This document shows, in pieces, positions 26,792-38,420 of a stretch of 64,000 nucleotides of DNA. A model generated the notes under the pieces. The model did not search any database and was not told the DNA's origin. It saw only the letters and a program-made list of their open reading frames with translations. Each line of letters starts with the position of its first letter. Position 1 is the stretch's first letter. The stretch spans positions 62,001-126,000 of the forward strand of contig JANZZV010000001.1 of NCBI GenBank assembly GCA_026419195.1, in the 5' to 3' direction. This DNA comes from Fervidobacterium sp. GTDB lineage: Bacteria > Thermotogota > Thermotogae > Thermotogales > Fervidobacteriaceae. Made by a program: the position numbers and the translations under genes.

Positions 26792-28687
26792 CTATTCTTC
26801 AACAAGAACGCCAAGAAATTGACTTTTATACATATTCGCATAAAAGCCGCCTCTACTAAGAAGCTCAGAATGCTTACCTACTTCTACTATCTTTCCTTCG
26901 TTGATAACAATTATCATATCGGCGTTTTTAATGGTAGATAATCTGTGTGCAACTACAAACGATGTTCTACCCTTCAATAAATCTTTCATAGCCTTTTGTA
27001 TGTAAATTTCCGTTAACGTATCCACGTTGCTTGTAGCTTCATCTAATATAAGCACGTCGGGATCAGCCAAAAAAGCACGGGCAATGGTAATTAATTGCTT
27101 TTCTCCTTGTGATATGTTCGATGAATCTTCACTGATAATTGTTTCATAACCTTTTGGCATAGCCATTATGAAATGGTGAACATGTGCCATTTTAGCTGCT
27201 TGTACAATCTGTTCATTGGTAGCATCTTCTTTGCTGTAGGCAATGTTTTCCTTTATAGTTCCAGAGAAAAGCCAAGTGTCTTGCAAGACCATTCCGAAGT
27301 GCCTCCTAAGATTAGATCTTTTTATATCCCTGATATCAATACCATCGATCGTTATTTTTCCACCCTGTATTTCGTAAAATCTCATCAATAAGTTAACTAA
27401 GGTGGTTTTTCCAGCACCAGTTGGACCTACAATAGCAACCATTTGTCCACTTTTAACGTCTATATTAAAGTTTTCTATAAGTGGCTTATCTGGAAGGTAG
27501 CTAAATCTAACATTTTCGAATCTTATGTTTCCATCCACTTTCTCCAATTCTATTGCGTTTTCTTTATCTGGTATTTCTTCTTTTTCTTCTAAAATCTCGA
27601 ATACTCTTTCCGAAGCAGCGAGTGTTGATTGTATCATATTAACTATGTTGGCTATTTGTATTATTGGTTGGTTGAATTGCCTTGAATATTGTATAAAAGC
27701 CTGTACATCACCTATGGTAATCTGCTTTTTGTTAACCAACACACTTCCACCAACAGCGACTATAATGTACCCTAAATTTGCTATAAAGTTCATCAACGGC
27801 ATAATTATTCCACTTATGAATTGTGCCTTTTTGCTCTCTTTGTATAACTCTTCATTGGTCATCTCGAATTTTTCTATCTCGTCCTTTTCTCGACCATAAG
27901 CTTTAACAACTAAGTGACCGCTGTAAACTTCTTCTATCTGTCCGGTGAGTTTTCCAAGTAATCTTTGCTGACCGCTGAAGTACTTTTGAGAATGTTTGGC
28001 AGTAAACATGACCGCAATAGCACTCATAGGTAGTGTCACAAGTGTCAATAAGGTTAGCAAACCATTTATAGTTATCATCATATATGTAATACCAAATATT
28101 GTAACTACACCCGATATAAACTGTGTTAGACTCTGTTGTAGAGTATTACTTATAAGATCAATGTCATTTGTCACGCGACTTATTATGTCACCATGTGATC
28201 TTTGATCGTAAAAACTCAGAGGCAACTTTTTGAGTTTCTCGTTTATATCTTCCCTCATTTTTCTTACTATCTTTTGGGTTATTCCTGCCATTATATAGCC
28301 TTGGAGAAAATTTAGCAACGCAGATATTCCATAAAGTATTGCTACCGTTGAAAGCACGGAAGATATTTTTTCGAAATTCATTTTCGTATTCAAAAATCCA
28401 GAAAATGGGGTTTTTCTTATCATTATGACCCTAAATATTTCCGTTGTTGCTTCTCCCATTATTTTTGGAGCTTTTATCGTGAGAACAGTCGCAAGGATAG
28501 TAAGAATAAAAACTAATGTAATTCCAATATAGTATGGTTTCAAATAACTCATTAGTTTTTTGAATGATTTTTTGAAATCTTTTGGTTTTTCTGCGAGCCT
28601 TGCGAACCCAGGTCCTCCAGGTCCCATTGGTCGTAATCTTTGTTGTCTTTGAAGGCGTTCTTTGTCTGCTAAGTTTTTGTTTTCCAC
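26792..28687 (-). CDS. ABC exporter half-transporter with catalytic-site Glu (TM288-like)
   Basis: This is one half of a heterodimeric ABC exporter. About 30 extra N-terminal residues rich in Gln and Pro precede six membrane helices (about 45-330). The nucleotide domain has Walker A GPTGAGKTT and Walker B LILDEATSNVD with the catalytic Glu. The signature deviates from LSGGQ, reading NISQGEKQ. Its partner upstream shows the reverse pattern, so one composite ATP site is canonical and one degenerate. This is as established for TM287/TM288 of Thermotoga maritima. The GTG at 28687 is 6 bases after GAGGTG, and an earlier GTG overlaps that site. The exported compound is unknown; multidrug or lipid export is possible. 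Confidence 0.92.
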   Translation of the reverse strand: MENKNLADKERLQRQQRLRPMGPGGPGFARLAEKPKDFKKSFKKLMSYLKPYYIGITLVFILTILATVLTIKAPKIMGEATTEIFRVIMIRKTPFSGFLNTKMNFEKISSVLSTVAILYGISALLNFLQGYIMAGITQKIVRKMREDINEKLKKLPLSFYDQRSHGDIISRVTNDIDLISNTLQQSLTQFISGVVTIFGITYMMITINGLLTLLTLVTLPMSAIAVMFTAKHSQKYFSGQQRLLGKLTGQIEEVYSGHLVVKAYGREKDEIEKFEMTNEELYKESKKAQFISGIIMPLMNFIANLGYIIVAVGGSVLVNKKQITIGDVQAFIQYSRQFNQPIIQIANIVNMIQSTLAASERVFEILEEKEEIPDKENAIELEKVDGNIRFENVRFSYLPDKPLIENFNIDVKSGQMVAIVGPTGAGKTTLVNLLMRFYEIQGGKITIDGIDIRDIKRSNLRRHFGMVLQDTWLFSGTIKENIAYSKEDATNEQIVQAAKMAHVHHFIMAMPKGYETIISEDSSNISQGEKQLITIARAFLADPDVLILDEATSNVDTLTEIYIQKAMKDLLKGRTSFVVAHRLSTIKNADMIIVINEGKIVEVGKHSELLSRGGFYANMYKSQFLGVLVEE

Positions 28688-28697
28688 TCTTATCACC

Positions 28698-30437
28698 TCA
28701 CTTTTGTAATTCTGTTTCTTCTTTTGAGAGTTGTGAATAGACTATCTCCCTGTAGGTTTCGCATTCATTAAGTAAATCTTCGTGGGTACCAATTCCTACG
28801 ATCTCCCCATCTTTCAAAACAATTATTTGATCAGCGTTCATGATAGTAGCAACTCTTTGAGCAACTATTATAACGGTTGCATCTTTGGTTTCTTTAAACA
28901 ATTTGCTTCTAATCTTACCATCTGTTTTGAAATCTAATGCACTAAAAGTATCGTCGAATAGATAAATCTTGGGTCTTCCAGCTATAGCCCTTGCGATGGA
29001 TATTCTTTGTTTTTGCCCACCTGATAAGTTTAAGCCTCCTTGTTCAATTTTGTATTCCAGTCCCTCAGGATATTTACTTGAAAATTCTGTAACTTGTGCA
29101 ATCTCAGCTGCGTGATTTATCATATCATCTGTAATCCATTCGCGTCCGAATCTTATATTCTCTTTAATGCTACCTGAAAATATAATAGCTTTCTGCGTGG
29201 CATAACCTATTTGGCGACGTAAGATGTCGAAAGGAATTTCTCTAATATCTACACCATCGAGCTTAATATTTCCAGAAACTGGGTCATAGAATCTTACTAT
29301 CAAATTCAAGAGCGTAGATTTTCCACAGCCTGTTGCACCAACTACTGCAGTAACTTTTCCAGGTAGTGCCTTAAACGAAATATTCTTTAAAACTGGTTCA
29401 CTTGCACCTGGATATGAAAAAGTAACATTGTCAAATTCAACAACACCTTGTAAATCAATGGTTTTTGAATATTTTAATGAACTTGTACTTTGTTTTATCT
29501 TAGGTTCAGTTTCAAGTATCTCTTTTATTCTTTGAGATGAAACACTCGCTCGAGGAAGAAAGATAAAAACAACAGAGATCATAATAAATGAAAACATTAT
29601 TTGCATAACATACTGCATTACCGCCATCATTTGACCAACTTGCAGTATTCCTTTATCGATTTGTTTGGCACCGAACCATATTATGGCAATAATAGTCAGA
29701 TTCATTATTATCATCATATAAGGAAAAAGCAAGGAACCTATTCTATTAACGGTAAGAGATGTTTTGATAAGATCAAAATTCGCTGTTCTGAATCTTTCCA
29801 TTTCCTTGTCTTCCTTATTAAATGCCCTGATTACTCTAATACCAGTAACACGTTCCCTTACAACAAGATTCAACTTGTCTATTTTTCTTTGTATACTTTT
29901 AAACAAAGGAGCAATGATTATTGCAATTATCCCCAGCCCAGCAAGCATTACGGGAACAGATATTAACAATGTAGCCGTTAATTTTGCATCTTTTTGGACA
30001 GCCATAAAAATTCCGCCAATTGCCATGATTGGTGCCATTACAACCATTCTAAGTATCATGACAACTGCCTGTTGTATTTGCATAACATCGTTTGTTGTAC
30101 GTGTTATCAACGACGATGTAGTAAATTTGTCTACTTCTTCTAAGGAAAATGAAGTAACTTTTGTAAATACCGCATTTCTCAGATCTTTACCTAATCCCAT
30201 ACTGACTACAGACGAGGTATAACTCGCCACGACAGCTGCCAAGACACTCAAAAAGGAAACAACTAACATCCTTCCACCTGTGCGCCAGATGTAATTGTCA
30301 TCACCTCTAACAATTCCCTTGTCTACAATATCCGACATTAAATCTGGAAGATAAAGTGATATTATTGATTGAACTGCTACTAGAGAAATAGTCACAACTA
30401 TGAGTAGCCAATACTTAAAAATAAACTTGCTTAACAT
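28698..30437 (-). CDS. ABC exporter half-transporter with degenerate catalytic site (TM287-like)
   Basis: This is the second half of the heterodimeric exporter, 579 residues, with six membrane helices in the first 310. The nucleotide domain has Walker A GATGCGKST, signature LNLSGGQKQR (canonical), and Walker B IYLFDDTFSALD. In Walker B an Asp stands where the catalytic Glu should be. This Asp and the deviant signature of the partner together make the degenerate ATP site, as in TM287/TM288. The start ATG overlaps the marR stop by 7 bases and the next half starts 11 bases after its stop, so all three genes are one operon controlled by the MarR protein. Confidence 0.93.
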   Translation of the reverse strand: MLSKFIFKYWLLIVVTISLVAVQSIISLYLPDLMSDIVDKGIVRGDDNYIWRTGGRMLVVSFLSVLAAVVASYTSSVVSMGLGKDLRNAVFTKVTSFSLEEVDKFTTSSLITRTTNDVMQIQQAVVMILRMVVMAPIMAIGGIFMAVQKDAKLTATLLISVPVMLAGLGIIAIIIAPLFKSIQRKIDKLNLVVRERVTGIRVIRAFNKEDKEMERFRTANFDLIKTSLTVNRIGSLLFPYMMIIMNLTIIAIIWFGAKQIDKGILQVGQMMAVMQYVMQIMFSFIMISVVFIFLPRASVSSQRIKEILETEPKIKQSTSSLKYSKTIDLQGVVEFDNVTFSYPGASEPVLKNISFKALPGKVTAVVGATGCGKSTLLNLIVRFYDPVSGNIKLDGVDIREIPFDILRRQIGYATQKAIIFSGSIKENIRFGREWITDDMINHAAEIAQVTEFSSKYPEGLEYKIEQGGLNLSGGQKQRISIARAIAGRPKIYLFDDTFSALDFKTDGKIRSKLFKETKDATVIIVAQRVATIMNADQIIVLKDGEIVGIGTHEDLLNECETYREIVYSQLSKEETELQK

Positions 30438-30901
30438 GCGTCATCACCTGCCTTTTTCTGTTCGAATTGTTCATCAATCTTTCTTCTTAGTTTGTCTATT
30501 AACTCTTCCAACTGTTTTTGCTCAGATTCTGTTAGCCCGCTTATCAATAAAGTTTCTATTTGTCTAATAGTTTTATGCACAGATTCCAAAACTTCTTGCG
30601 CTTTTGACGACAGATAAACTCGTGAAATCCGTCTGTCTTTTACATCTTCTTCACGATAAACAAGTTTATTCTTTTCCATTCTCTTCAACATTACTGCAAC
30701 AGTTCCTGGTTCCACATCCATGAGCTTTGAAATGTCTCGCTGGCTTATTCCTGGATGGTTTTGAATCAAAAACAGCATTGGAATCTGCCCAGGGTGTATC
30801 GAATACGTTCTTGAGATACTCTCGTTAATAATCTTGAATATCTTCCTTTGTAAAACACTCATCTTGTAAAGAATACTGTTTTGATCTACAATGCCTTTCA
30901 A
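30431..30901 (-). CDS. MarR-family transcriptional repressor
   Basis: The 156-residue protein has a MarR winged helix. Helices lie around SRTYSIHPGQIPMLFLIQNHPGISQRDISKLMDVEPGTVAVML, followed by the wing DRRISRVYLSSKAQEV and a long C-terminal dimerisation helix rich in Glu and Lys. The TTG at 30901 follows GAGAGGTG by 6 bases. Longer versions run through an ATG at 30922 and then through the operator repeats, giving a nonsense Ile/Arg-rich stretch, and are rejected. The gene heads the exporter operon, and two copies of a palindrome overlap its promoter. Autorepression relieved by an exporter substrate is the likely scheme. Confidence 0.88.
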   Translation of the reverse strand: MKGIVDQNSILYKMSVLQRKIFKIINESISRTYSIHPGQIPMLFLIQNHPGISQRDISKLMDVEPGTVAVMLKRMEKNKLVYREEDVKDRRISRVYLSSKAQEVLESVHKTIRQIETLLISGLTESEQKQLEELIDKLRRKIDEQFEQKKAGDDAC

Positions 30902-30936
30902 ATTAAACACCTCTCTTTTCATAAAGTTAATAATAG

Positions 30937-30963
30937 TTATACGTATAATAGTTATACGTATAA
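30937..30963. promoter_or_regulatory. Two tandem palindromic operators for the MarR protein
   Basis: TTATACGTATAA occurs twice (30937-30948 and 30952-30963), a perfect 12-base palindrome with a 15-base period. The copies cover the edge of the -10 and the transcription start of the marR operon. Confidence 0.75.
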
Positions 30964-30990
30964 TTATATTACAACACTTGGTTTTGTCAA
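30963..30990 (-). promoter_or_regulatory. Consensus promoter of the marR-exporter operon
   Basis: On the minus strand TTGACA and TATAAT are perfect consensus boxes spaced 16 bases apart. The -10 touches the upstream operator copy. Confidence 0.85.
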
Positions 30991-31041
30991 GCTGCATTAT
31001 GAAATGGAATTCTGAATTTATCTGGAAAATGCAGAAGGATG

Positions 31042-34335: not shown

Positions 34336-34370
34336 TTAACTTGGTCAAAAATGATTTAGAAGGTGAAAAA

Positions 34371-35066
34371 ATGAAATGGTTAACAAAAGATAATGTTGAA
34401 GAGCTCAAGAAATTAATCATTAAGGAAGGTTGGTATGTTGAAGATCTACTTAGAATCACAGCAGAAGCGTTTAAGGAAAGAAATATTGAACTTGCCAAGC
34501 AAGTTGAGGACGAATATTGGGATGTTTATAATGAATATCTCGAAATTCTCAATTACTCACAAGTAATCGTAGGTTTATGCAACCCAAATGGTTACGACCT
34601 TAGATTTGTATTTGGATCTGCTCTCATATCAAAGATACTTCTTGATATAGGTAAGAGACTAAAAGATATTGTTTTTGACATTAAACAGCTTGTTAGAGAA
34701 CCTGAATTAAACCAAAGTGTAATGTTGCCAGAAATGTTCTCTTTCTCTCAAAAGATACTTAGGAGAGCTTTGAGAATTTACGTTGATCAAAATCTGGAGG
34801 GCGCATCTGGAGTATGTTCACAAGATTCAATTATAGATGGAATGTTTGCAAAATTTAACGATGATATAATAAAAATTATCCAAGACAATCCTCGTTTAGT
34901 TAGAAGAGCATTACTTCTTATGGATATATCGAAAGCTCTTGAAGAACTTTCTGATTTTTCTGTCCAGATAATCGAAGTTACATATTATATACTGACTGGA
35001 AAATACCATACTTGTTACAACGATCTTCTCCAACCATTCTCCATTGAAATTTTTAAGGCAAAATAA
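34371..35066 (+). CDS. PhoU-like helical protein, orphan
   Basis: The 231-residue protein is all-helical with two repeats that look like PhoU. The first has GYDLRFVFGSALISKILLDIGKRLKDIVFDI, close to the PhoU DLR-kI--dleRigD pattern. The second has RRALLLMDISKALEELSDFSVQIIEVTYYILTGKYHTC, close to the eRigDha-niae--yl-tG pattern. PhoU proteins control phosphate uptake through PstSCAB and PhoR, but no pst or pho gene is in the window. Several metal-ligand Asp/Glu positions seem altered. The ATG at 34371 with GAAGGTG is preferred to a TTG ten codons upstream. It lies between nadK and the LptF/G-like gene in the same run. Confidence 0.65.
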   Translation: MKWLTKDNVEELKKLIIKEGWYVEDLLRITAEAFKERNIELAKQVEDEYWDVYNEYLEILNYSQVIVGLCNPNGYDLRFVFGSALISKILLDIGKRLKDIVFDIKQLVREPELNQSVMLPEMFSFSQKILRRALRIYVDQNLEGASGVCSQDSIIDGMFAKFNDDIIKIIQDNPRLVRRALLLMDISKALEELSDFSVQIIEVTYYILTGKYHTCYNDLLQPFSIEIFKAK

Positions 35067-35081
35067 TAATGCAAGCATGGA

Positions 35082-38000
35082 GTGAGGATTTTGAGAACGT
35101 TGACAAAATATGTTATCAAACAATCCCTAAAGCCATTTTTCATGGGACTAGGTGGTTTTATCGTATTTGTAAGTGTTGAATGGCTGTATCAAATATCAGA
35201 TTATATTATTAGAAACAGGGTAGGTATTGACAAACTACTTATATTTGTCATGTACAACGTACCGTACTTTACCTTTCTTGGTATACCTGTTGGTGTACTA
35301 TTCGCTATTTTTTGGGTTATTAGCGAAATGTACACGAGTCGCGAGATAAGTGCACTCTTAGTACACGGTATATCGGCAAAAAGACTTGTAACACCGTTTG
35401 TAATTTTAGCAGTTGTCTTGGGGTTTTTCTCTTGGCTACTCGGAGACTATGTGGTGCCTATTTCAAACTATAAATCCACTCAGATACTGAATCAGTACAT
35501 ATTCCAAACACCCGAAAATGTTGTAAAGACCAACATGCTTGTTGAGTTAGAAAAGGATGTGTATTTTTACGTAAAAGAACACAACAAACAAAAGGGAGAA
35601 TTATACGACGTTGTTCTATTTAGAAACGAAGAGGGAAATGAACAGATATTAACCGCAAAGAAAGTTGTGAAGAAAAAAGACGGTTGGTTCCTTATGGATG
35701 GTTCCATGTACGTTGTTGAGATTGAGACTGGTTTTCTAAGATTGGATATGCAGTTCAAAGAGATGAAACTCGATGTTGCTGGAGAGATAGAAGAAATGTT
35801 GAGAGCTTACAAAACAACTCGCGATAAAACATCAAAAGAATTGAGGGAGCAACTTGAGACGTACAAAAAATTGGGAATAAACACAGCAAACCTATTAGTT
35901 GAGCTTCATCAGCGATATGCAAATGCGCTTGGTGCACTTGTAATTGTTCTGTTGGGTTTACCAATTTCTTTACTGTTTGGTCTTACCAGCAGGTCTTGGA
36001 GCGTTATTTTGACATTCTTAATAGTTGTCTTGTACCAGGGTTCTGGAGCTTGGCTTTCTGGTATGGGAAAAGAAGGGTTGATGGATCCTATACTTGCGAC
36101 CTGGTTACCAAACATTATTTTTGCTACAATTGGATTTTTACTCTACATCTTAATAGATACACCTATAGCATACAAAATGATAGAAGTATTTTCTAGACTA
36201 TTTGTTTTTATTGTAGTTTCAGCAAGTTTTATATATGTTAACACATCAACGGGTTTTTCATCGATAATTCAAGCTAAATCAAATGAGGCACGTTTCTCTA
36301 CGCAGTCTGTAATATTTCGTGGAGAAGTTTCTTTGGTTTGGGACAAATACAAAATACTTTGCGATGAAGCATCCGCTACAATAGTTGATGGTACCGTCAA
36401 AGCTTTGGAAGCATATGGGAACGTGAAATTTTACGACCAAGACAGAGTCTACATTTCACGAAAAATCAGATACGAATTTGAAAGTAATAAAGCATTGATT
36501 GTAAATGCCAAGGTAGTGTACAATTATGATTACAAAGGAAAAAAAGTACCAGTGTACGTTTACGGTTCTCAAATAGAGTACGATGCTGAAACATCATTAG
36601 GCATTATCCAAAGCTCGCAGCTGACAACATGTAATTTAGAAGAACCTCATTATATGATACTTTCGTCCACTGTCTTTGTACTGGAAAATAAATACATTAT
36701 AGCAGAAAATTCATTTCTTGTTATCTTGGGCGTGCCTCTCTTGCCGTATCCAATATATATAACAACGTTAGAGGGAACTCCTCCTTACTCTTTCTCTCTC
36801 GTTTTCGGTAATACAATAAACATTGCACAAACGTTCAATTTTACTGTAAACGATTGGGCGCTTAAAATTGAGATTGGAACAAAAGGAAATCTAATCGAAG
36901 CAACGGATAAAAAAGTGAAGACAAATAAGTTCGTTTATGATGAACAAAGAGATTACGTTGAGTTTTCCTTTATACCTTTTGTTTATAAATACTCAAGAGG
37001 TACAATTTACTACAAGTTCGATGGTCCAATTTATGTAGAAGGAAATTATTACGGTGAAAATAACTTTTCCCAAAAGTTGGGTATCAATTTACAAAATGAG
37101 AATGTATACATTAGACCTTATGTTTTGTACGATGAGAAATTAACTGATAGTATAGTGTATTTCAATGGTGGTATTAGAAACATTTCTTTCCAACTGTTTG
37201 ATGATAACACATTGAAAGTAAATTCAGTTGATAATACGTTTAGGTTACAAACAGACGGTTATTTAACTTCTTTGCAAAAAACATGGAATACTTACTATCA
37301 AACTTCATATAATATAGGACTATCAAGCAAAAAGTTGAGTTACAGTCTTTCATTCATCGGGAATGTGTACAGTAACAGTGAAAATAGAAATATTACCTAT
37401 ACGTATCAACTGCCTTGGAGTTGGAAAGAGGGACCTTTTGCAGTTGATTTTAATTACACTTTTACAGTAAAGAATATCATGAATTATGTTTCAAACACAA
37501 AAAGAGAATTCTTAGGTGCATCTGACAACTACACATTGACCGGAATGTACAATTTAGGTCCATTCAAATTAACATCTCGATGGGAACAGACGTATAATTT
37601 CATTGACGAATCCTCAGCCAATAACAAAAATAATCTCAGATTTACCGGAGAAATTAACTCTGCTAATCTGACAATCTCTGGTGCAAGAACACTTGATTTA
37701 AATAACAATAGATTGCTTCCAGACACTCTTACTCTGAGAACTAAGCAATCAGTTGGGGATGTTGAACTGACAAATTCCATTTCTTTAAATTATGATAACG
37801 TGAATAAAAAACTTGGGAATGAGAACATTACAATAAGTGCAAATTACAAACCTTTAAATGCAGAATATACTTTGCAGTTTACCATTCAACCTGGTAAGCC
37901 TATAGATACGTACGTTCATATAATTAAATATGGTAATTTTTCCATGACCGCATATCAACAAAACGATTTTATAAAAAATGCAGTTGCTACTGGAAGCCTT

Positions 38001-38420
38001 GATTTATTTGGTTACAAAACGACAATAAGAGCAAATTACAACCAAGCTTCTCGGGAGTCCGCACCTAACTGGAATTTGTCTTACATTATGGAAAAACCTA
38101 GCGAAAGATATGTACTCTCTTATAATTTGGATGGAAAGAAGACCTACAAGCTTGAAGCAACACTGAAAACTTTTGATCCAGAAACGAAGATAGGACTAAC
38201 GTATAATCCGGAGAAGAATACTATTGACTTTTTAAGCTTGAATTTGGATAAGTCACTACATTGTTGGAGACTAAATTTTGGAATAGACTTTTCAAACAGA
38301 AGCGCCAATATTCTAGAAAATATAGACAAAGTATATTTCAAATTCTATTTGACAGATATGCCGGACCGCTTCTTCCAGATAGATCCAAAAAGTGGTCAGT
38401 TTGAATTCGGTGGAATGTAA
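35082..38420 (+). CDS. LptF/LptG-type permease fused to LptD-like outer-membrane assembly domain
   Basis: The first 360 residues are an LptF/LptG (YjgP/YjgQ) permease: membrane helices at about 20-40, 52-80, 101-122, 280-300, 305-325 and 340-358, with a beta-rich periplasmic segment at 140-235. Family text includes FLGIPVGVLFAIFWVISEMYTSREISAL. A seventh helix at about 372-386 would put the remaining 720 residues outside. These begin with an LptA/OstA-like repeat region at about 400-620. Long beta strands follow, ending in LHCWRLNFGIDF and FYLTDMPDRFF, which recalls the CCW and final strands of LptD. Known systems use separate LptF, LptG, LptC, LptA and LptD proteins. Lipid cargo in this lineage is unknown. 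The GTG start is tentative. Confidence 0.8.
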   Translation: MRILRTLTKYVIKQSLKPFFMGLGGFIVFVSVEWLYQISDYIIRNRVGIDKLLIFVMYNVPYFTFLGIPVGVLFAIFWVISEMYTSREISALLVHGISAKRLVTPFVILAVVLGFFSWLLGDYVVPISNYKSTQILNQYIFQTPENVVKTNMLVELEKDVYFYVKEHNKQKGELYDVVLFRNEEGNEQILTAKKVVKKKDGWFLMDGSMYVVEIETGFLRLDMQFKEMKLDVAGEIEEMLRAYKTTRDKTSKELREQLETYKKLGINTANLLVELHQRYANALGALVIVLLGLPISLLFGLTSRSWSVILTFLIVVLYQGSGAWLSGMGKEGLMDPILATWLPNIIFATIGFLLYILIDTPIAYKMIEVFSRLFVFIVVSASFIYVNTSTGFSSIIQAKSNEARFSTQSVIFRGEVSLVWDKYKILCDEASATIVDGTVKALEAYGNVKFYDQDRVYISRKIRYEFESNKALIVNAKVVYNYDYKGKKVPVYVYGSQIEYDAETSLGIIQSSQLTTCNLEEPHYMILSSTVFVLENKYIIAENSFLVILGVPLLPYPIYITTLEGTPPYSFSLVFGNTINIAQTFNFTVNDWALKIEIGTKGNLIEATDKKVKTNKFVYDEQRDYVEFSFIPFVYKYSRGTIYYKFDGPIYVEGNYYGENNFSQKLGINLQNENVYIRPYVLYDEKLTDSIVYFNGGIRNISFQLFDDNTLKVNSVDNTFRLQTDGYLTSLQKTWNTYYQTSYNIGLSSKKLSYSLSFIGNVYSNSENRNITYTYQLPWSWKEGPFAVDFNYTFTVKNIMNYVSNTKREFLGASDNYTLTGMYNLGPFKLTSRWEQTYNFIDESSANNKNNLRFTGEINSANLTISGARTLDLNNNRLLPDTLTLRTKQSVGDVELTNSISLNYDNVNKKLGNENITISANYKPLNAEYTLQFTIQPGKPIDTYVHIIKYGNFSMTAYQQNDFIKNAVATGSLDLFGYKTTIRANYNQASRESAPNWNLSYIMEKPSERYVLSYNLDGKKTYKLEATLKTFDPETKIGLTYNPEKNTIDFLSLNLDKSLHCWRLNFGIDFSNRSANILENIDKVYFKFYLTDMPDRFFQIDPKSGQFEFGGM

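Follow-up and report, generated by a model that had tools for sequence, protein, structure and literature searches.

The window, a 64,000-nucleotide stretch of a Fervidobacterium sp. genome assembly (contig JANZZV010000001.1, positions 62,001 to 126,000), contains on its forward strand an ORF of 1112 amino acids at 35082–38420, with a GTG start and without an internal stop. The ORF encodes, in order, a complete LptF/LptG-type permease (residues 1–359), a hydrophobic segment (residues 361–393), and a complete LptD (residues 394–1112). We computed the folds of this fusion, its conservation across the phylum, the gene content of the genomes that carry it, and the signal-peptide-like make-up of its junction. 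The features of the locus are:

34341..35066, + strand: PhoU-domain protein, upstream neighbour (PF01895)
35082..38420, + strand: fused ORF, LptF/G permease – putative internal signal peptide – LptD (Pfam, AlphaFold2, Foldseek, VIA-align)
35082..36158, + strand: LptF/LptG-type permease, residues 1–359 (PF03739, E 3.3e-69; VIA-align Z 27.6 to 6mjp_G)
36162..36260, + strand: extra hydrophobic segment, residues 361–393, candidate internal signal peptide or TM7 anchor (AlphaFold2; 89 homologues; starts of separate LptD genes)
36267..36593, + strand: OstA / LptA-LptD_N beta domain, residues 396–504 (PF03968 above cut-off; LptA Z 14.8)
36624..36632, + strand: TTC motif with Cys517, counterpart of the Cys173 motif of E. 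coli LptD (hhalign)
36786..38411, + strand: LptD C-terminal region with the outer-membrane beta barrel, residues 569–1110, barrel start approximate (AlphaFold2 strands; Foldseek and VIA-align)
38259..38267, + strand: HCW motif with Cys1061 (C-terminal Cys kept in homologues)

Frames of the same size occupy the position of the PhoU gene upstream in most homologous loci; as far as is known, the PhoU-domain protein lies outside the machine described here. Elsewhere in the window, an ABC half-transporter pair with membrane and ATPase domains (26792–30437) lies behind a MarR-type regulator gene (30431–30997).

The permease half has six transmembrane (TM) helices, with a periplasmic beta domain (residues 149–230) between TM3 and TM4. 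Pfam LptF_LptG (PF03739) covers residues 9–355, and the VIA-align match of residues 1–359 to LptG extends across 349 residues. The NCBIfam LptF and LptG equivalogs each match the permease below their cut-offs, which places it in the family without making it a true LptF or a true LptG. The first-pass annotation had called for a search for a second permease. We found one PF03739 gene in the source genome (G000) and in nearly all Thermotogae genomes, the exception being G005, which has two; these counts do not supply the two genes of an LptF-LptG heterodimer, and a single permease gene implies a homodimer.

The residues beyond the extra helix had been read at first pass as an LptA/OstA-like region followed by long beta strands, a reading borne out by profile, model and fold comparisons. 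LptD_N (OstA, PF03968) matches residues 396–504 at E 3.4e-4, scoring 21.2 bits where the cut-off is 20.4, and is found at E ≤0.1 in 25 of 43 homologues. Compared with the PDB by VIA-align, the OstA domain matched LptA over residues 389–518 (Z 14.8) and LptC (Z 11.9). AlphaFold2 strands span residues 397–630, and long barrel strands occupy 689–1110. VIA-align matched LptD with a Z of 20.2 over residues 392–1092 (512 residues, rmsd 13.9 Å), and LptD chains overall gave Z 17–20 over residues 389–1112 at an rmsd of 10–14 Å; because these rmsd values are large, we make no claim on the overall shape of the barrel or its strand count. Searched against the PDB, a profile built on the C-terminal parts of 33 Thermotogota homologues matched only LptA and LptD chains, and hhalign aligned the OstA domain and a TTC...PIFYSPY block with E. 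coli LptD (E 7.7e-6).

The same half retains cysteines in positions familiar from LptD. T515 and C517 are invariant in the homologue alignment (A2). A cysteine lies within the last 85 residues in 36 of 42 homologues, and in many of them the LptD half has only two cysteines; the C-terminal one is missing in Thermosipho and some others. The HCW near the end of the chain had been likened to the CCW of LptD, and the likeness has gained from the alignments, as its Cys1061 pairs in conservation with Cys517 of the TTC motif. Judged from these patterns, Cys517 is the probable partner of Cys1061 in a predicted disulfide of the Cys173-Cys725 type. Two variants of this half were seen among homologues. 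Several Bipolaricaulota loci (L093-L095, L098, L099, L102, L103) have TTCxC and a C-terminal CxxCW in place of single cysteines, making two disulfides possible, and in Kosmotogaceae and relatives (L065, L072, L073) the fusion is ~1400–1480 aa long, with ~300 extra residues and long insertions in the barrel part.

AlphaFold2 modelled the full chain, using 43 homologues, with a mean pLDDT of 84.8 and a pTM of 0.41, the latter as expected for two bodies joined by a flexible link; pLDDT fell below 50 only at residues 380–393. Foldseek placed LptD at all of ranks 1–15 among PDB chains (E 1e-20 to 1e-14), followed by 21 LptF/LptG chains. A 1091-aa homologue from Bipolaricaulota, modelled at pLDDT 78.4, has an identical layout and identical fold matches. 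Structure prediction on the full chain, proposed at first pass as a check, recovered both LptG/F (Z 27.6) and LptD (Z 20), and Pfam, AlphaFold2, Foldseek and VIA-align concur that one polypeptide joins LptF/G, OstA and the LptD barrel.

Such a frame could also be produced by an assembly or sequencing join, or belong to a decaying gene, and frames are indeed broken in a few genomes (G041, G044, G093; also Marinitoga lauensis, L105). However, PF03739 is present in 100 of 103 Thermotogae genomes, and the frame that carries it is at least 900 aa long in 89 of these 100, many of them single-contig assemblies. The 11 exceptions are six contig ends (G001, G022, G031, G034, G062, G097), the three broken frames, and two true splits (G005, G054). 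Bipolaricaulota have the permease in 91 of 100 genomes, with a frame of at least 900 aa in 76 of the 91. The open fused frame thus recurs in both phyla, complete genomes included, and sequence conservation extends from end to end in the homologue alignments. The frame counts rule out an assembly artefact, and we give a join or a decaying gene next to no credence.

These counts also show the fusion, suspected from a single sequence, to occur throughout the Thermotogae and to reach beyond the Thermotogota into Bipolaricaulota. An alignment-based scan of genome contigs returned 1040–1160-aa fusions in Thermotogota and in Bipolaricaulota/Acetothermia, and the C-terminal halves of the two phyla aligned over 607 columns (hhalign, 99.7%). 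In other bacterial families (~190 genomes), the best matches were unfused frames of ~360–480 aa. The exceptions looked at in these families were G303, with a 984-aa fusion of the Bipolaricaulota type, and G307, where two LptF/G-type permeases lie head to tail in one 854-aa ORF (L221:3155-5719).

In quick trees with 19–20 other permeases as comparison, the permeases of Thermotogota and Bipolaricaulota fell on one side of a branch (SH-aLRT 94–95), with the split genes nested within. This placement of the split genes inside one clade favours a single origin of the fusion, with the splits coming later. Among the Bipolaricaulota, G150 has the order lptB-permease-lptD with hardly any gap (L246:115-4375), and G151 (L245) has the same split permease-LptD pair; this operon may be either the ancestral state or a later split. 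In G005, a Thermotogota MAG, two diverged unfused permeases (L042:3410-5740, L218:1753-4302) cluster with fused relatives. Here the fusion seems to have split and the permease to have duplicated, as though this genome were evolving an LptF/LptG heterodimer anew.

The junction between the halves is modelled as an extra helix (residues 361–382) followed by a low-confidence gap (380–393). In all 89 homologues, TM6 is followed by K/R, a hydrophobic core of ~10 residues and, immediately ahead of the first OstA strand, a site with small residues. Candidate cleavage sites (arrow) are AWA↓QEPPP, AHA↓QDPP and SFA↓APA in Bipolaricaulota and AQA↓SDV and AWA↓SDV in Fervidobacterium, with TGFS↓K and QGFS↓E as further examples; the closest relatives have stronger sites (AQA↓SDV, AWA↓SDV) than the one in the window, TGFS↓S after residue 393. 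Scored with a small cleavage-site matrix built from E. coli signal peptides, the best sites of the junctions had a median of 2.55; shuffled tails reached 1.1, and TM1, TM3 and TM5 reached –1.0, 1.4 and 0.6, respectively. Stand-alone LptA proteins from the same lineage have signal peptides that scored 0.95, and by this measure the junction resembles a signal peptide no less than they do. Two other measures were dropped: hydrophobicity gives no separation of the junction segment from a true TM helix, and the (–3,–1) rule, taken alone, is also satisfied by 95% of the TM3 and 84% of the TM5 controls.

The strongest evidence that the junction is a signal peptide comes from separate LptD genes, which in three lineages start with a signal peptide of their own at the junction position. 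The separate LptD gene of G005 (849 aa) starts with MKERRMVIKKFKKNQIFHILILIILLIPLMAFTQDEN; in G054, the permease ends ...EPLKRLLG and LptD begins four bases later, with MHLRYKSFSPVLFIISLFFIILSGTKVFSATAYID. These genes mark the segment as the site of the LptD signal peptide and indicate that the two halves are able to serve unlinked. The extra helix therefore looks like a retained signal peptide, formerly that of LptD, as far as sequence comparison can tell. The first-pass annotation had the helix carrying the next ~720 residues outside the cytoplasm. The helix is present and LptD domains do follow it, but its signal-peptide make-up argues against the lasting link that had been pictured.

In-frame ATG, GTG or TTG codons fall at residues 355–378 in 38 of 43 homologues, including an ATG at residue 366 in the window, so the halves might instead be made separately, by ribosomes that start, or restart, internally ahead of the signal peptide. 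The positions of these codons are not conserved among the 43 homologues, however, and a Shine-Dalgarno-like motif precedes the internal start in 2 of 43, against 21 of 43 for the annotated start. We consider separate synthesis very improbable.

Partner genes for an Lpt machine are encoded elsewhere in these genomes. The proposed search for lptB yielded one strong LptB per genome: in 98 of 103 Thermotogae genomes a single TIGR04406 match passed the equivalog cut-off, at ~300 bits where the next ABC proteins score <200. In the source genome, LptB is at G000:C1:192611-193306 (L034:5612-6325), after a Skp/OmpH-like gene. A Skp/OmpH-like chaperone gene directly upstream of lptB was also noted as an arrangement in its own right (L034:5612-6795, L130, L129), with BamA nearby in some Mesoaciditogaceae. 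Many Thermotogae have one stand-alone OstA (LptA/C-like) protein per genome, of ~200–350 aa and with a signal peptide, which in the source genome is an ORF on G000:C6 (L123:4834-5508). We considered a separate LptC and rejected it, as the LptC-profile matches fall on these LptA-like ORFs. No stand-alone OstA protein was found in Bipolaricaulota by a search that was weak there, matching anything in only 15 of 100 genomes. By eye, two patatin-like phospholipase-type genes precede the LptA-like gene in several Thermotogota (L123:3296-5508, L125, L127), a possible link to lipid remodelling. A BamA-type Omp85 is present in 88 of 103 Thermotogae genomes.

LpxC was absent from all 103 Thermotogae and all 100 Bipolaricaulota genomes, where control profiles did match; the cargo would thus be other than ordinary LPS, in keeping with the earlier suggestion of a different lipid. 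Thermotogae have been listed among the phyla without LPS genes (PMC5007114) and described as without nearly all outer-membrane genes studied except bamA (PMC8871954). Borrelia (BB0464-0466/0807/0808/0838) and Treponema have an Lpt-like machine without LPS, with glycolipid as the proposed cargo (PMC10353723), and a passage of the same paper, citing Putker 2015, credits T. maritima with Lpt orthologues. Following the argument made there for Borrelia and T. maritima, the non-LPS cargo is most likely a glycolipid.

The absence of LPS genes could equally be taken to mean that the C-terminal half is an LptD-like barrel with another job, such as import or a structural role in the toga. Consistent with this, a Pfam scan of 43 homologues gave no match of the C-terminal half to the Pfam LptD barrel family, and the barrel sequence diverges strongly from genus to genus. 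Against it, the barrel has an LptF/G permease, LptB and an LptA-like protein as constant companions and retains the LptD cysteine motifs, and we think a role outside lipid export improbable.

The first-pass annotation had proposed a lasting covalent bridge from inner to outer membrane. Residues 361–393 would then stay in place as a seventh TM anchor replacing LptC, perhaps with two chains per permease dimer. Maintenance of one ORF in two phyla speaks for such a bridge, as do the lack of a separate LptC, whose profile matches the LptA-like protein, and the LptC-like side of the N-terminal OstA domain (Z 11.9). There is also a published precedent, the elongated MlaD of Veillonella parvula, which combines an inner-membrane part and an outer-membrane beta barrel in one chain for lipid traffic (PMC10665443). 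This is the nearest precedent in architecture, but it is an MCE protein with unrelated folds, its small barrel ends a long helix, and no internal signal peptide is reported for it; in a Pfam scan, the MCE family was absent from the fused ORF and its homologues. Standing against the bridge are the signal-peptide-like junction, the natural split genes that divide at exactly the junction point and carry a signal peptide there, the presence of a stand-alone LptA, and geometry. The toga is ~50 nm from the cytoplasmic membrane, held by OmpA1 (PMC3387000), a figure for T. maritima and not for the source organism. By our estimate, an uncut chain would reach ~11 nm (~6 nm for the 17-residue linker and ~5 nm for the OstA domain), so it cannot cross ~50 nm except where the membranes touch, which favours cutting. 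We therefore regard a lasting bridge as unlikely, if still worth weighing, and rather doubt its fullest form, an uncut seven-TM chain with its own LptD barrel acting as a self-contained glycolipid export bridge at membrane contact sites, possibly with two barrels per dimer.

Our preferred reading, which we hold to be fairly probable, is that the ORF encodes an Lpt-type lipid exporter as a polyprotein cut at an internal signal peptide. Sec would insert the permease, leaving the chain back in the cytoplasm after TM6, and the internal Sec signal peptide, formerly that of LptD, would initiate a second translocation. Signal peptidase I would most likely cleave at GFS↓S (after about residue 393), so that a short seventh helix stays on the permease and LptD is released. 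Outer-membrane insertion of LptD would follow, probably through BamA, which most of these genomes encode, with Cys517 and Cys1061 pairing where both are present. The permease homodimer would sit on an LptB dimer encoded elsewhere, forming LptB2(F/G)2, which would pull lipid from the inner membrane and pass it through the stand-alone LptA/C-like protein to LptD and the toga surface. We infer the cleavage, the homodimer and its stoichiometry, the partner contacts and the cargo. That the fusion has been kept so long could mean that the covalent link is in use.

A membrane protein, a signal peptide and an exported protein are likewise encoded together in Bradyrhizobium fbcH, a cytochrome b/c1 polyprotein cut at an internal signal peptide; both fbcH products stay at the inner membrane, and there is no outer-membrane barrel. 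The machine resembles the Lpt system of LPS bacteria (LptB2FGC-LptA-LptDE) in its permease fold, OstA domains, LptD barrel with a cysteine pair between N-domain and C-terminus, LptB, and LptA-like protein, but differs in that one ORF encodes both LptF/G and LptD, with a putative signal peptide between them, and in having a single permease gene, no separate LptC found, and no LpxC, hence a cargo that would not be LPS. In Borrelia and Treponema, by contrast, all components are separate proteins, with LptF and LptG as two genes. Diderm Firmicutes (Negativicutes, Halanaerobiales) also have a single LptF/G gene in their Lpt cluster (PMC5007114), but with two separate OstA proteins, no recognised LptD, and LPS present. 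In the open-access literature searched, we found neither an LptF/G-LptD fusion nor its internal signal peptide described.

On our preferred reading, Thermotogota and Bipolaricaulota carry a complete and compact Lpt-type exporter that went unseen because its LptD is fused to the permease and has diverged. The fusion is a shared character tying two deep phyla, and it would represent an unusual route of biogenesis in which inner- and outer-membrane partners are made 1:1 from one polyprotein by way of an internal signal peptide; if the chain proved to stay uncut, it would be the first covalent Lpt bridge. Few outer membranes are as poorly understood as the toga, and the fused ORF offers a specific gene with which to test what lipid coats it.
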